This document shows, piece by piece, positions 13,185 to 19,351 of a stretch of 20,059 bases of DNA. Position 1 is the stretch's first letter. The number at the start of each line of letters is the position of its first letter. Where the stretch lies: positions 1 through 20,059 of the IMG/VR virus record IMGVR_UViG_3300031215_000085; one strand, written 5' to 3'. The translations under genes and the position numbers were made by a program. Source of the DNA: a virus. The notes beneath the pieces were generated by a model that saw nothing but the letters and a program-made list of their open reading frames with translations, searched no databases and was not told where the DNA came from.

Positions 13185-14713
13185 TAGTTGCCAACTCCTA
13201 AATAGTCCAAATCAGCCTGCGGAACGCCGCCGCCCGCTGCTGGCGTGCCTGTGGAGCCTCCGCCATACGCTGCAAGCAAATCCTTCACTTGCTCGGGAAT
13301 GCCGGACGACTGGTCTAGAGTCCGCAAGTCCTGTGTCGCCTGTGCTTGGGAATAAGTGGTGTCGTTCATTAGGCGGTTAACAATATCGGCGCGGGCCATG
13401 TTGAACTGAGACTTAGCTTGCATTACTGAGATAATTGCGGAGTTTGCTTCCCTTGTGTTTTTCATGTTGCCAAAACCGTCAAGCATACCCTGATATTCAA
13501 TGTCAGACGTAGAGCCGGAACCCTCCACCCGAAGTGTTGGCGCGACACGTCGCATAATTGAAGTCCGCAACGCCGAAACGTCGCTAAACTCTGGGAACAT
13601 TTCGGCAAACCTGCCCGTTACTGGTCCTTCTGGCGCAACGCTTGCCAATTCCTGCAACACATTGAGATCGCCCATAACTGCGGCGCTGGCTGACCCCGCA
13701 GTCCTAAACGCGGAAAACTCATCAACTAGACTTTCAGACAAGCCTGTGCGCAGCGCCGCGTCCGCTGAATCAGCCGCGTCGCCAGTGTGGATGTCAATGT
13801 TAGTCCCGCCGCCGAAAGCACGCTCCATTGCCTCTGTCGGATCCGTGCCGTTTGCCAGCATAAACTGATAATTCTGCATTGCGCTCGTCTGGTCAACGGG
13901 CGCGTTCGCCGCTGCCATTTCCGCTTGATACGCCTGCAACGCTGGCCCAACGCCCACCGCGTCCGCCATTGTTGCAAACTTTTCGCCGCCGGGCTGATTG
14001 AGCAACCATTCAATTGTACTATTCCTGCGGTTGGCGTCACGCCGTCCCTGTTGCTGGGCCTGAACCTGCCGCGCCAAGTCTCGGTCAGGGTTTAAGGTCA
14101 TTGAGTTGAACCCCATCGCAAGGTTGCCCATAAGGTCCTTGAAGTTGTCACGCTGATAGAATGACTGCCCCGTTGGACCCGCTGCGCCTTCTTCACGACG
14201 TTGTAGGCCGAGAGCACCTAGAATGCCTTGCGGCGCTTGTTCCTGTGCCATTTGTGGCGCTCCTCTTGTACTTACTGTTGCCCGTGGGTTTGGGGCCTGT
14301 TGACTTGGTGTGTGTGGCTGGTGGCCTGCGTGCGGTTGCGATCCGCCAACTTGAAAGTGAACCCCATCCCGCAAGGACTCCCAATCGCCGCCCCATACAA
14401 AATCATTATACCCAAGCTGTGACGCCGCCGCCTTTGCAGCCTCGGCTATTGGCCGGTATGCCTCAAAATCCCAATTCACCCCACCGTTGCCGTCTGGAAT
14501 GAATATGTCTGCTGCGTTGCCGACTAAGTGGCGGCTGTTCATTGTTTGGCTTGCGCCGCTGTCGAAAAGTTCTTGCTGTCGATCCCGCGTGCGCATCCCC
14601 TCCGATATTTCAAAAGGAACGCCCGACGTATTTCGCGCCATCGTTAGGATTTCGTACAGGCGAGGGTCAACCCCTTGGAAGTTTCCGGTTGACCGCTCGT
14701 TAAAGATAGTCAT
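13184..14713 (-). CDS. Virion protein with N-terminal M15-type peptidase
   Basis: 509 residues. Residues ~15-125 are a zinc D,D/L,D-peptidase of the M15 (VanY/DacB-like, phage L-Ala-D-Glu endopeptidase) group: SEGMRTRDRQQELFDSG, then SRHLVGNAADIFIPDG with zinc ligands H62 and D69, and DGVHFQ with H119 as third ligand. The rest (~140-509) is a Gln/Pro linker plus a long helical domain of unknown fold. The peptidase probably opens peptidoglycan locally so DNA can enter. Location among ejection genes, not beside the endolysin, supports a virion role rather than host lysis. Starts and stops overlap as TAATG at both ends. Confidence 0.85.
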   Translation of the reverse strand: MTIFNERSTGNFQGVDPRLYEILTMARNTSGVPFEISEGMRTRDRQQELFDSGASQTMNSRHLVGNAADIFIPDGNGGVNWDFEAYRPIAEAAKAAASQLGYNDFVWGGDWESLRDGVHFQVGGSQPHAGHQPHTPSQQAPNPRATVSTRGAPQMAQEQAPQGILGALGLQRREEGAAGPTGQSFYQRDNFKDLMGNLAMGFNSMTLNPDRDLARQVQAQQQGRRDANRRNSTIEWLLNQPGGEKFATMADAVGVGPALQAYQAEMAAANAPVDQTSAMQNYQFMLANGTDPTEAMERAFGGGTNIDIHTGDAADSADAALRTGLSESLVDEFSAFRTAGSASAAVMGDLNVLQELASVAPEGPVTGRFAEMFPEFSDVSALRTSIMRRVAPTLRVEGSGSTSDIEYQGMLDGFGNMKNTREANSAIISVMQAKSQFNMARADIVNRLMNDTTYSQAQATQDLRTLDQSSGIPEQVKDLLAAYGGGSTGTPAAGGGVPQADLDYLGVGN

Positions 14714-15672
14714 TAGTACAGCCCGCCGATAATATCACCCTTTAGCCCGCTGTAATTAACCCGCAGGTATCCGTCCGCGCCGGTCGTGACCAGTTCGGGG
14801 TGCGTCTTTTGCAACTCGTCAGCCATAACGCCAAACGTGCCTTGACCCGGTGATACGACCTTCAAGCCTTCTTCGTTCCAGTCCCAATTGTAGAACCGGA
14901 TGCCGTCGATGTCGCCAACGTGCTGCACGTTTTCTTTTAGGCGAGGGTCGGAAAAATTGGTGCCACTCGCCCCCAGCGCCCCAAGAGACAGATAATCAAA
15001 AAGCCCCGGTTGCTTTGTCTGCGTTGTGGTTTGCCCGTATTGAGCGCCGCCAAGCGCCTGCAATGGAAGGCTAAGCGCCTGCTGTGGTGCGCCCGTAAAG
15101 CCCGCGTATTGCTGACGGCCTGCGTTCATAAGCTGCTGCATCAACGCTTGTTGCTGCCCGCCCTGTTGCGCTTGCTGTTGCCCGATCTGCTGACCAAAGC
15201 CAAAGCCCATGTTGGACAGATTGCCCATTTGGTTAGCCGCTTGTAGCCCGACCTGCTGTTGGTTTTGTGCGCCGCCGAGTGCGGTGTTAAAGCCCTGCTG
15301 TTGAAGCCGCCCGAACGTATCCGCGCCCTGACGCGCAAAGCCCTCATTGGTCATCGCATCCGCGACCCCGTGGCGTGAACCACCGAACGCGCCTGCCGCT
15401 GACGCCTGTGCGCCCATGTTGTTGGTTGCCATTTGGCGTTGCCGCTCAAGGCTGTCTAGCGTGTTGCCCGTGACCTGCTCGGTGTAGGGGTTCATAAACG
15501 CGCCGATATTTGGCCCTGCTGCCGCTGCTTGCGTTCCGCCTAGTGCCGCGTTGTACGCGCCCGCCGATTGGCCGAAAACACCGTTGCCCGCGCCCGCCGT
15601 CGGCCCGCCGACTTGCGACATTGCTGGCTGATAAGGTGCCTGCGTTTGTTGTGGATTTGCTCCGCCTGCCAT
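14713..15672 (-). CDS. Gln/Ala-rich structural protein with C-terminal S74 chaperone domain
   Basis: 319 residues from ATG 15672 (GGGGGC site upstream); an ATG at 15813 would run back through the whole end of the previous gene and is rejected. Residues 1-230 are Gln, Ala and Gly rich (NTALGGAQNQQQVGLQAANQ; QQQAQQGGQQQALMQQLMN). The last ~79 residues are a Peptidase_S74 intramolecular chaperone: FSDPRLKENVQHVG, then RFYNWDWNEEGL, GTFGVMADELQKTHPELV and YLRVNYSGL. The self-cleavage pair S241 and K246 is intact, so cleavage before S241 after trimer folding is expected. These domains usually end tail fibres; here it caps a helical internal or tail-hub-like protein. Confidence 0.75.
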   Translation of the reverse strand: MAGGANPQQTQAPYQPAMSQVGGPTAGAGNGVFGQSAGAYNAALGGTQAAAAGPNIGAFMNPYTEQVTGNTLDSLERQRQMATNNMGAQASAAGAFGGSRHGVADAMTNEGFARQGADTFGRLQQQGFNTALGGAQNQQQVGLQAANQMGNLSNMGFGFGQQIGQQQAQQGGQQQALMQQLMNAGRQQYAGFTGAPQQALSLPLQALGGAQYGQTTTQTKQPGLFDYLSLGALGASGTNFSDPRLKENVQHVGDIDGIRFYNWDWNEEGLKVVSPGQGTFGVMADELQKTHPELVTTGADGYLRVNYSGLKGDIIGGLY

Positions 15673-15673
15673 T

Positions 15674-16123
15674 TTACTTGCCCCCGCCCATCCCAGAAGG
15701 TCGTGAGGACCCGGGAAATAGTGATGTTCTGGGAGCTTGTGGCCCTCCAGGATCAATGAATTGGTCTGTAATAGCCTTGTATTGGTCGGGACGCTGCGCC
15801 TGTAGCTGGCCAACTGCGCTTTCGTACATTGGCGCTGACGAATAGCCCATCACGCCGTTGAAGTCCTGCGCTGCTGGCATTCCCTCCATTCCAGTCATAC
15901 CGCCGCCCGCCATGCCGAACGCGTCTGCGGCGTTGCTGGTGTTGGCAAAGGACGCCTGTTGCATGGGGTTAAATGCCGCCACGTCAGCACCGTAGTAGGG
16001 CGTGTAGCCAATCTGTGAAATCTCATCAGCCCGTGCAAGGTTCGCTTTTGATGCGTCCTCAACCCATTGTGGAATTTTTACCTCAGAGGTGGTGCTTCCG
16101 CCTTTTCCGCCGCCGCCGCTCAT
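15674..16123 (-). CDS. Gly/Met-rich structural protein
   Basis: 149 residues. It starts MSGGGGKGGSTTSEVKIPQW and continues VEDASKANLARADEISQIGY and TPYYGADVAAFNPMQQASFA, a pattern seen in structural proteins of marine podoviruses (recollection). The middle is low-complexity Gly/Met (GMAGGGMTGMEGMPAAQ). It probably works together with the following Gln/Ala-rich protein, whose N-terminus reads like a continuation (NPYTEQVTGNTLDSLERQR); in related phages the two may be one gene. ATG 16123 overlaps the previous stop; it ends 2 bases before the next start. Confidence 0.65.
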   Translation of the reverse strand: MSGGGGKGGSTTSEVKIPQWVEDASKANLARADEISQIGYTPYYGADVAAFNPMQQASFANTSNAADAFGMAGGGMTGMEGMPAAQDFNGVMGYSSAPMYESAVGQLQAQRPDQYKAITDQFIDPGGPQAPRTSLFPGSSRPSGMGGGK

Positions 16124-16476: not shown

Positions 16477-16793
16477 GTTGATATTGCCACCCGTTTCCAT
16501 GTGTCGGTTGCAGTGCAGACGTAAAGGTGCGTAGTGTCCTGCGCCAATTCGCCCGCCTGCCCCGATGCTGTCGCGCTTGCAGGCACGCCGACAAACAAAC
16601 CGATTTGCGCGTATGCGCCGCCCTTAGAGACAATCGGATAACCGTTTGCGTTGTCCCAAAGGAGTGTCCCGTTTTCCGCCGCAGTCAATCCGGACCGCTT
16701 GTAAGTCAGCCTTGACCACTGCGCGGCGATAGTGCGGCGAAAGTCTTGCGCCCAGACACGAACGTCAGGCCCTACTGGTGGCAAGCCATTCAT
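16470..16793 (-). CDS. Small tail/virion protein
   Basis: 107 residues; ATG 16793 overlaps the nozzle-like stop (ATGA). The N-terminal ~30 residues are helical (PPVGPDVRVWAQDFRRTIAA), followed by a beta-rich module: ENGTLLWDNANGYPIVSKGG and then GELAQDTTHLYVCTATDTWK ending RVAIS. The last block is the common phage structural ending in which a displayed strand finishes with TWKRVA. It is likely a tail or fibre-attachment component; the position directly after the gp10-like gene fits. No enzymatic motif. Confidence 0.65.
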   Translation of the reverse strand: MNGLPPVGPDVRVWAQDFRRTIAAQWSRLTYKRSGLTAAENGTLLWDNANGYPIVSKGGAYAQIGLFVGVPASATASGQAGELAQDTTHLYVCTATDTWKRVAISTW

Positions 16794-18268
16794 CGACGGC
16801 CACCTGCAAAGGCTTCGACGCGCATAGTCCCCACACGCCAGTCAGCCAGCCGGGCCGCATCAACGCGCATTCGCACCTGTCGCCCCGTAAACCGCACGTC
16901 TGTCGGGGTTCCCATCGTGTAAGGCCCGAATGACTGCTCGTCGCCATTTGGGTAAAACCGTGTCTTAAATGTCGCAGTTACGTCGCCCTGCGTTTCCTCG
17001 TCGGGCAAAAGGCTTGTGACCGAATAAACATTCTCGCCCGTGCCGATTGTGATAGGTCCGCTTTCCGCAAACACAGCGTCGGCACCATGCATCAACCCAA
17101 CCTCATGCTCGTACACGTTCCCGCTTACATCGGCCCACAACGGATACTTGAACACACCGCGAGGCACTGCCGATGTGCGCTCAATTGTGCCAATCATCCA
17201 GTGGCCCTCTGCGTAGTCTAGTGCGACATATCTGTCACACTCATTGGACCCGCCCGATGGATAGAACCACCAGATTTCGCTGTGTTGCGCTAATGACACA
17301 GTATGGATCAAGCTAACCTGTGATCTGTTAATGTCACCAAAGACATAATCAGCAACGTCGCACGGCAATTCCTGCACCGCGCCGCCTGCGAACGTAAAGA
17401 ATGCGTTTTGCCCCATCCAGAACGCGCCTGCGTCAACGGATACCAGCGCCTTGCGCGATGTAATGCCGCACGCTTGGCCCACCTTCTCAAAGCCATAGAC
17501 GAATGGTGGGCCTTGATAGGTTGCCGTGTGGGCGTCTTGGTCTGTCAGGATTAGCGATTGGCCGCGCACGTTAATTCCGCACATAATCTGCCCAGACGTT
17601 TGCAACTCAATATCGCCCGCCTCGTTTGTCGCCGCCGCCGTCCATACCGTGTTGTTTTCGCGGTCACACCATTGAACCTTGCGCGGATTGCCACCAGCGC
17701 CAAGCGCAAACAAAAAACGATCCGCTGAAACTAGCAATGAAAGGTTGTCCACTGGTGCGTTGCTAATTGCCGCCGCTGGGGTGCCTGTATCCAGCGCCCA
17801 TTCGTACAGCTTTCCGTCCGCGCTTGAGCAAGCAACAAGGTTCTCGCCAAAGTTATCAAGCGCCCAGGTTGTCGCCTCTGAAAAGGTGCCTGTGTCCGCC
17901 CGTTCCGTGCCAAACGTTCCGGCCCCAAAAAAACCGCCGCCAAAGCCGGTGAACGCCGCAGAACGAATAAGCCCCGACGTAAAGCTCACCGGTGTGATGT
18001 CAGTTGTCGTGCCTGACGCCGACGTGGTGAATAGTTTGTTATACGTCCCCGCCGCGATGCGCCGATCCCCGTTCAGGTCATCCCAAGCGAGCATCCCGCG
18101 CGGGGGCTGGTCGTATGCTGTTTCTAAGCGCGTGCGCCACCCGCCAACCGGCCGCAATGACCCGTCACGCCAGCGCACTAGGTTAGCGTCACGCCACCGG
18201 CCCGATTGGTCAAACTCGGTTCCGTTGCGATAAACGCCGGGCGGTATCTCAAGTGGCAGTAGTGGCAT
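16790..18268 (-). CDS. Tail nozzle-like protein (P22 gp10 type)
   Basis: 492 residues from ATG 18268 with AAAGG upstream; an ATG at 18358 would overlap the preceding gene. It opens PLEIPPGVYRNGTEFDQSGR, then WRDANLVRWRDGSLRPVGGW, and continues as repeated beta blades (AAGTYNKLFT; ENLVACSSADGKLYEW; KVQWCDRENNTVWTAA; SEIWWFYPSGGSNECDRYVA). It closes with a strand-rich end (VRFTGRQVRMRVDAARLADW). This mostly-beta layout with a C-terminal R-x-R-V strand matches the gp10/gp4-like closure proteins of short tails, which plug the portal channel and hold fibres. Assignment is by layout and context; an outer tail protein is the alternative. Confidence 0.65.
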   Translation of the reverse strand: MPLLPLEIPPGVYRNGTEFDQSGRWRDANLVRWRDGSLRPVGGWRTRLETAYDQPPRGMLAWDDLNGDRRIAAGTYNKLFTTSASGTTTDITPVSFTSGLIRSAAFTGFGGGFFGAGTFGTERADTGTFSEATTWALDNFGENLVACSSADGKLYEWALDTGTPAAAISNAPVDNLSLLVSADRFLFALGAGGNPRKVQWCDRENNTVWTAAATNEAGDIELQTSGQIMCGINVRGQSLILTDQDAHTATYQGPPFVYGFEKVGQACGITSRKALVSVDAGAFWMGQNAFFTFAGGAVQELPCDVADYVFGDINRSQVSLIHTVSLAQHSEIWWFYPSGGSNECDRYVALDYAEGHWMIGTIERTSAVPRGVFKYPLWADVSGNVYEHEVGLMHGADAVFAESGPITIGTGENVYSVTSLLPDEETQGDVTATFKTRFYPNGDEQSFGPYTMGTPTDVRFTGRQVRMRVDAARLADWRVGTMRVEAFAGGRR

Positions 18269-18281
18269 TTGTGGCCTTTCC

Positions 18282-18632
18282 TTAAAAGCTGTAAGATACG
18301 CCGATAACAGCGCCGTAATTGATGCCGCCGCGCCCGTCAGTCTCAAAAGCGGGGGCAATAAATAAGTCTACGTTGTCCGCAATCTCGTAACCAGCGCGTA
18401 GATATGGTGCCACTGTTATAGACTCGTACCCACCAACCGCGCCAACCTCAAGAAACGCGGCGTCATACTCAAAGCGCCAGCCCAGATACGGTGATACGTT
18501 GCTTTCGCTGTTTAGATATGCACCAGCAACAAAACCGCTGTCAGCCTGCAACTGAATATGCGGGTGAATTTCATTGTAATCTCCGTTCATGCCGATGTGC
18601 TGGCTAAATGCTATGGCGAATATCAGGTCCAT
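18282..18632 (-). CDS. Small outer-membrane beta-barrel-like protein
   Basis: 116 residues; AGGAAAGC lies right before ATG 18632. After a short hydrophobic start (MDLIFAIAFS) the protein shows alternating beta strands with the GDYNEIHPHIQL, GFVAGAYLNSESNVSPYLGW, FLEVGAVGGYESITVAPYLR, AGYEIADNVDLFIAP and YGAVIGVSYSF blocks. It ends in an aromatic residue, as outer-membrane barrel strands do. The pattern recalls small phage-coded outer-membrane proteins. About six strands are predicted, so it would have to oligomerise. It has no clear signal peptide cleavage site. It lies within tail genes, so a virion surface protein is the alternative. Confidence 0.6.
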   Translation of the reverse strand: MDLIFAIAFSQHIGMNGDYNEIHPHIQLQADSGFVAGAYLNSESNVSPYLGWRFEYDAAFLEVGAVGGYESITVAPYLRAGYEIADNVDLFIAPAFETDGRGGINYGAVIGVSYSF

Positions 18633-18640
18633 GTGCTTTC

Positions 18641-19351
18641 CTACTTTGGTGCGATTATGAGGGTTACGGCTGCGGAACTGTTGGTGCTATTGGTAGCCCC
18701 CGTGAATGTAAGAACGGCAGGGTCAAACGCTCCGGCAGCCCATGCAAAGCGGCCCACACCTACCGTAGCGCAACGAATGTCATTGGCTCCAGATGTCTCA
18801 AACCCGTCAAATTGTGAAAACCCTGACGTGTCGTAGACTTTAGTGCCATCTCTGTGTGACCCTGCACCCCCCGCGAGTATTACCGCCCCCAGAACAGTCG
18901 GAGTAATTGCAGGTGCGTCAACTTCCGCTGTGTTATTTTGGTTTGCGTCAGCAAATACCGGTGTATCAGTTGATGCGCCAGCGTACACAAATACCGCCGC
19001 AGCCATCGAGTTACGAGTAGATTGCGTACCCCCTGATATTACCATTCCAGTGTCCGGTGTTGACCCCATAACCTTATAGTAAACACTTAGATCAGTGCTG
19101 TTAGTGTCTGACCCCCCCTTGTTAACGAGCAGCGTCCACCCGCTCGGTGTTGGGACCGATTCTGGGACTTCTCGTGACGCAACACCAACGTATATAATAA
19201 CAAGATCGCCTTCGCGCGGCGCTGACGATATGCCACCGGATAGGCCGTCGATAGGCACAGTTACATCACTTGTTGTCCCGTCGCGGGCGTAGGACTGTGA
19301 GCCTACAAACTTCAAACCGCCCATCCGCGTAAATGTAAACGGCATAAGCAT
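18641..19351 (-). CDS. Beta-rich virion protein, likely tail or receptor-contact protein
   Basis: 236 residues. ATG 19351 overlaps the tail-fibre stop (TAATG). It is beta-rich with Ser/Thr/Gly: PREGDLVIIYVGVASREVP, then TPSGWTLLVNKGGSD, LSVYYKVMGSTPDTGMVISG, NSMAAAVFVYAGASTDTPVF, APAITPTVLGAVILAGGAG, and the end FTGATNSTNSSAAVTLIIAP. This domain type occurs widely in phage and bacterial surface proteins (PSGWTLL ... VYYKV ... ATNST.SSA..TL). It sits beside the tail fibre and probably takes part in host contact. No catalytic motif. Confidence 0.65.
   Translation of the reverse strand: MLMPFTFTRMGGLKFVGSQSYARDGTTSDVTVPIDGLSGGISSAPREGDLVIIYVGVASREVPESVPTPSGWTLLVNKGGSDTNSTDLSVYYKVMGSTPDTGMVISGGTQSTRNSMAAAVFVYAGASTDTPVFADANQNNTAEVDAPAITPTVLGAVILAGGAGSHRDGTKVYDTSGFSQFDGFETSGANDIRCATVGVGRFAWAAGAFDPAVLTFTGATNSTNSSAAVTLIIAPK

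Follow-up and report, generated by a model that had tools for sequence, protein, structure and literature searches.

A putative PagP-like outer-membrane barrel without a signal peptide in the tail operon of a phage

Introduction

Bacterial outer-membrane proteins carry a cleaved Sec signal, and we know of no Sec route for a barrel protein that has no signal peptide. A small gene in the window analysed here, which is the whole stretch of 20,059 nucleotides of virus record IMGVR_UViG_3300031215_000085, raises the question of what a protein with the features of an outer-membrane barrel might do among phage tail genes, and of how it would reach a membrane when it begins directly at its first strand. 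A sequence-only reading of the locus had proposed an outer-membrane barrel that shields receptors late in infection or travels with the virion; it was silent on the leaderless state of the protein, which is the main puzzle.

The gene and its neighbours

The gene, identified by its open reading frame, a profile match, and an AlphaFold model, occupies positions 18282..18632 of the minus strand, starts with ATG, and encodes a protein of 116 residues whose last residue is Phe, in line with the length and aromatic end previously claimed for it. A ribosome-binding site, AGGAAAG (18636..18642, minus strand), can be read directly 3 nt 5′ of the ATG and shares bases with the stop codon, TAG, of the upstream gene. 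The reading frame is more than a chance one because identical DNA is carried by contig L001 (0 of 348 nt differing), because the proteins of L002 and L009 are 73% and 71% identical to the window protein, and because dN/dS over the first 98 codons is ~0.09 and ~0.12 for L002 and L009 against the window, respectively, and ~0.14 for L002 against L009. The gene is thus real and, by these sequence comparisons, under strong purifying selection.

Downstream lies a nozzle gene (16790..18268, minus strand; likely ATG at 18268), whose product matches phrog_3287 (E 1.6e-88) and, by sequence, phage nozzle chains in the PDB (E 1.8e-5 and 2.2e-5). The upstream neighbour (18641..19351, minus strand) encodes 236 residues for which searches of PHROG, Pfam, and the PDB returned no match. 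Of the two neighbours previously assigned, the nozzle protein therefore stands, whereas the receptor-contact protein finds no backing in these searches. The contig also codes for capsid, portal, ejection, and lysis genes, the lysis module comprising an endolysin and an Rz-like spanin. Two further products of the window were noticed: a 509-residue protein at the position of an ejection gene (13187-14713) has an N-terminal endolysin-like domain, and a DNA-ejection-like protein (14713-15813) ends in a Peptidase_S74 (endosialidase chaperone) domain, which is unusual at that position.

A predicted membrane-type barrel fold

AlphaFold2, supplied with an alignment of 20 contig sequences, models the window protein as eight strands with a mean pLDDT of 94.3 and a pTM of 0.82, in keeping with the all-beta character and the G/A-Y strand patterns noted earlier (GAY 37-39, GGY 67-69, AGY 80-82). 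By the model and a comparison of N-termini, the hydrophobic strand 1 comprises residues 2-13 (18594..18629, minus strand); the last strand, G111-F116 (18285..18302, minus strand), read directly, ends in GxxYxF, which we take to resemble the C-terminal beta-signal of outer-membrane proteins. Residues alternate in all eight strands, which gives each strand a distinctly more hydrophobic face and a less hydrophobic one, and the summed difference was reached in 67 of 20000 shuffles. This alternation in every strand points to a membrane barrel. The hydrophobic outside, the C-terminal aromatic residue, and the eight modelled strands are features of outer-membrane barrels, closure of the barrel being deduced from the barrels that the model matches in the PDB.

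These structural matches are mainly outer-membrane barrels, accompanied by some soluble ones, with Z scores of 11.9 for a designed barrel, 10.7 for OmpA, 10.5 for Cap15 (7n34; rmsd 2.3 over 97 residues), 10.2 for PagL (2erv; rmsd 3.1 over 111 residues), 10.1 for NspA, and 10.0 for PagP (3gp6; rmsd 3.2 over 112 residues). Neither a jelly roll nor a fibre fold is present among the PDB matches shown, so that the structure prediction proposed as a check in the sequence-only reading yields a membrane-type barrel. Foldseek found no match to the model in the PDB at E<=0.001 and returned 18 viral matches, the top one in Vibrio phage JSF10. The function cannot be read off the fold alone, since PagP scores no higher than a designed barrel, OmpA, and Cap15.

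Probable kinship to PagP

The sole PHROG match of the window protein is phrog_3600 (E 4.4e-10, residues 6-114), a host-takeover family labelled 'antimicrobial peptide resistance and lipid A acylation protein PagP'; the match spans just positions 190-305 of a profile 315 positions long. Relatives of the window protein match the same family, as does Escherichia coli PagP itself (E 1.3e-6), while OmpX, OmpA, and OmpW give no match to it at E<=1; OmpX matches phrog_108 instead. The link to PagP is strengthened by gp22 of phage BcepIL02, which matches both phrog_3600 (E 4.1e-37) and the Pfam PagP family (24.8 bits; cut-off 24) and, when aligned with E. coli PagP, shows 32% identity. In profile comparisons, the marine family is connected to a family from Vibrio and Salinibacter phages (98.6%), which in turn is connected to a set formed by Burkholderia-phage proteins and E. 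coli PagP (93%).

Direct comparisons are negative. The marine-family profile is not significantly similar to PagP (probability 0.2-0.3%), a 27-sequence profile found no PDB chain, PagP included, and the window protein has no match in Pfam and does not reach the cut-off of PF07017 (PagP). With single sequences, hhalign did not distinguish PagP (score 27.1) from OmpA (26.4). Because the profiles link stepwise and the direct comparison is not significant, the kinship to PagP is transitive only; on sequence grounds, a remote relationship of this kind is probable. Together with the hydrophobic outside of the modelled strands and the signal peptides on several relatives, the family match bears out the earlier proposal of an outer-membrane-type barrel.

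A conserved polar cluster

Apart from Met1, 15 positions are invariant in 23 marine sequences, including H12, Y19, N20, H23, N41, S42, S47, and Y49. The conserved polar cluster consists of H12, Y19-N20-E21, H23, H25, N41, S42, S47, and Y49, plus E62, R79, and E97, and is located mostly inside the half that is taken as extracellular by PagP topology. H12 (18597..18599, minus strand), invariant in 23/23 marine sequences, aligns with His33 of PagP; the Y19-N20-E21 motif (18570..18578, minus strand) recurs in the alignments as YNE in E. coli PagP; and N41-S42 (18507..18512, minus strand), the counterpart of PagP Asp76-Ser77, is N-S in 28/28 distinct leaderless sequences. An 11-sequence alignment that includes E. 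coli PagP leaves the His, the Asn of YNE, and the Ser invariant. In a legend of PMC5740924, H33, D76, and S77 are listed as important residues of PagP. Two of these three, His and Ser, are aligned in the window protein, and the Asp is replaced by Asn, as it is in all 28 distinct leaderless and 14 of 16 leadered sequences; Asp is found in the two leadered sequences from Burkholderia.

With the inward face selected by polarity and the extracellular half assigned by PagP topology, residues pointing inward in the putative extracellular half have a mean conservation of 0.85 in the 23 marine sequences, whereas those pointing inward in the opposite half average 0.61 and the two groups of outward-pointing residues 0.56 and 0.49 (Spearman 0.34; p 0.0016, indicative only as the sequences are related). 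Conservation thus appears concentrated inside the putative extracellular half, an arrangement resembling an active site.

The missing signal peptide

Judged by eye, charge, and hydrophobicity, the window protein has no recognisable Sec signal peptide, and it has no room for one since strand 1 already begins at residue 2. The same approach divides a comparison set of 65 of the fetched family loci, from which duplicate contig ids and some loci were omitted, into 49 leaderless loci (28 distinct N-termini), in which the conserved His is at residue 11-18 and the start at or just before strand 1, and 16 leadered relatives, in which this His is at 28-78, mostly behind an apparent Sec signal. The six residues ahead of the S-x-H motif have a Kyte-Doolittle mean of 2.59 in leaderless and 1.15 in leadered proteins (p 1.7e-7, with kinship ignored). 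Unlike Sec signals, 25 of the 28 leaderless N-termini have a net charge of zero or below at residues 2-7; two of the three positive ones are MF(R/H)KKK forms and possibly weak signals.

A hidden leader or upstream extension was considered and rejected: L002 and L020 have a stop codon directly ahead of the ATG, and most other loci offer a short open stretch without a start codon. Possible earlier starts, at most 21 codons upstream and judged unlikely, occur in L005, L085, L093, L027, L030, L054, L096, L097, and L098. L099 and L100 were counted as leaderless by judgement, a V read as a GTG start being preferred over an ATG 25 codons upstream (140 residues). No account of a leaderless PagP-like phage protein, and no mention of this barrel as belonging to the phage curli operon, was found in the literature listings or in the available portions of PMC10269572, PMC9804370, PMC7029224, PMC9599517, PMC9004378, PMC5740924, and PMC9144972.

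Genomic contexts of the relatives

The barrel gene immediately follows a tail-fibre or tail-module gene in five loci, namely the phage of the window, L002, L009, L010, and L037. Elsewhere, the neighbours among 28 loci opened include DNA polymerase (L012) and ribonucleotide reductase (L014), other relatives adjoin terminase/NinB regions or a phage curli operon, and those of Vibrio phages are located in early regions. Among 20 records searched, Terminase_3 was not found and Terminase_6N exceeded its cut-off in four. Vibrio phage Thalassa (L071, 10290-10799) has, besides its PagP-like protein, one annotated as a Lom outer-membrane protein, both within 5 kb. The place of the barrel among tail genes looks incidental, because the other loci adjoin non-tail genes.

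In all four longer marine stretches opened (G010, G008, G002, and G006, corresponding to L101-L104), the leaderless barrel comes after CsgF, CsgG, curlin-like, and FecR-like genes, with a CHASE2-cyclase-like gene further along. In each of the four, Pfam verified CsgF and CsgG. Curlin repeats exceeded the cut-off in one of two of these stretches tested and in one further contig, L054, but not in the curlin-like protein of L056. FecR exceeded it in both recognised proteins (L056 and L022), and CHASE2-cyclase in the one protein tested (L022). A large protein of 609-664 residues with a signal-like N-terminus adjoins the barrel in curli-bearing contigs (L056, 4386-6212; L048, 4360-6351) and has no Pfam match above cut-off. 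Phage curli operons have been published (PMC7029224, PMC9599517, PMC9004378), and the barrel is unmentioned in the available portions of these accounts.

Possible functions

The best reading, to which we assign a probability of about 0.5, is that of an accessory host-takeover protein of the PHROG 3600 family, a leaderless PagP-like barrel that remodels outer-membrane lipid and has been inserted into the tail operon. The polar cluster would be the active site, at which acyl chains on an outer-membrane lipid are transferred or cleaved in a PagP- or PagL-like manner, with Asn where PagP has Asp76. The surface of the infected cell would then be remodelled late in infection, which might, for example, hinder superinfection or toughen the membrane; shielding against superinfection by such a putative barrel enzyme is possible. 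As to export, a slightly favoured guess, itself unproven, is that the hydrophobic strand 1 doubles as an uncleaved export signal; slightly less favoured is an exit via the holin when the cell lyses, in the way endolysins leave. Somewhat doubtfully, several phage lineages may have made signal-less barrel enzymes that are targeted by a strand 1 turned hydrophobic or delivered by the lysis or secretion machinery of the phage itself; in marine phages with curli genes, the barrel may even be a so far overlooked component of the curli system.

The conserved interior could instead be structural packing in a non-enzymatic, OmpX/Lom-like barrel that merely alters the surface. Barrels of this kind normally have a polar interior, and many PDB matches of equal Z, such as OmpA and NspA, are structural proteins; however, the outer half is more conserved than the inner one, and the family tie is to PagP rather than OmpX/Lom, the window protein matching phrog_3600 only. 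This makes a purely structural role rather unlikely. Unlikelier still is a leaderless cytoplasmic protein that is let out by the holin at lysis and inserts into the outer membranes of debris or neighbouring cells or aids rupture. That the proteins of 49 loci begin at strand 1 would suit such a protein, as would the late operon with a lysis module in the same contig and the arrangement in L002, where the barrel is directly followed by weak spanin-like and amidase endolysin genes. Yet leaderless relatives are also found beside early genes and beside curli genes whose products show signal-like N-termini, and the phage of the window already has a spanin-like gene. A soluble ligand-binding barrel, e.g., a Cap15-like cyclic-nucleotide sponge, would agree with the Cap15 match and the missing signal peptide, but is highly improbable given the hydrophobic outer faces, the homologues with signal peptides, and the tie to PagP. 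Equally improbable is a virion tail component, which the adjoining nozzle gene and the tail genes preceding the barrel in L002, L009, L010, and L037 would suggest, but which is at odds with the predicted membrane-barrel fold and with relatives outside tail modules, in early regions or beside curli genes. The earlier interpretation is thus partly supported: the outer-membrane idea was right in kind, whereas the virion idea is unsupported, the position of the gene not being conserved.

Under the preferred reading of a lipid-remodelling barrel, marine phages, some of them with curli genes, would carry an enzyme that likely modifies lipids. The PHROG 3600 family is already known; the leaderless form and the curli neighbourhood are the parts that deserve a bench test, and leadered and leaderless members that keep one putative active site offer a direct test of barrel export without a Sec signal.

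Comparison with known systems

Cap15 receptors consist of two transmembrane helices plus a soluble barrel, whereas the model of the window protein has no helix and a hydrophobic outside. Lom/OmpX proteins (phrog_108) are likewise small outer-membrane barrels carried by phages, but the window protein has no match to phrog_108. PagL, a lipid A deacylase, is also an eight-stranded outer-membrane enzyme, with no sequence match found to the window protein. The phage proteins of PHROG 3600, such as those of Vibrio phages and BcepIL02 gp22, have the H, YNE, and (N/D)S motifs in common with the window protein, although many members carry a signal peptide while the window protein begins at strand 1. 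According to the available parts of the respective sources, PagP-like accessory genes of phages include orf72 of CSP3 (PMC10269572) and genes in BcepIL02 and DC1 that are missing from JC1, Bcep22, and BcepMigl (PMC9144972).

PagP itself features an N-terminal helix, and both this helix and the signal peptide are absent from the window protein, which has 116 residues compared with 186 in the E. coli PagP precursor. E. coli PagP (PF07017) and the window protein nevertheless have in common an eight-stranded barrel, the YNE motif, and the His and Ser residues at PagP positions 33 and 77 (H12 and S42 in the window protein), with Asn in place of Asp76.
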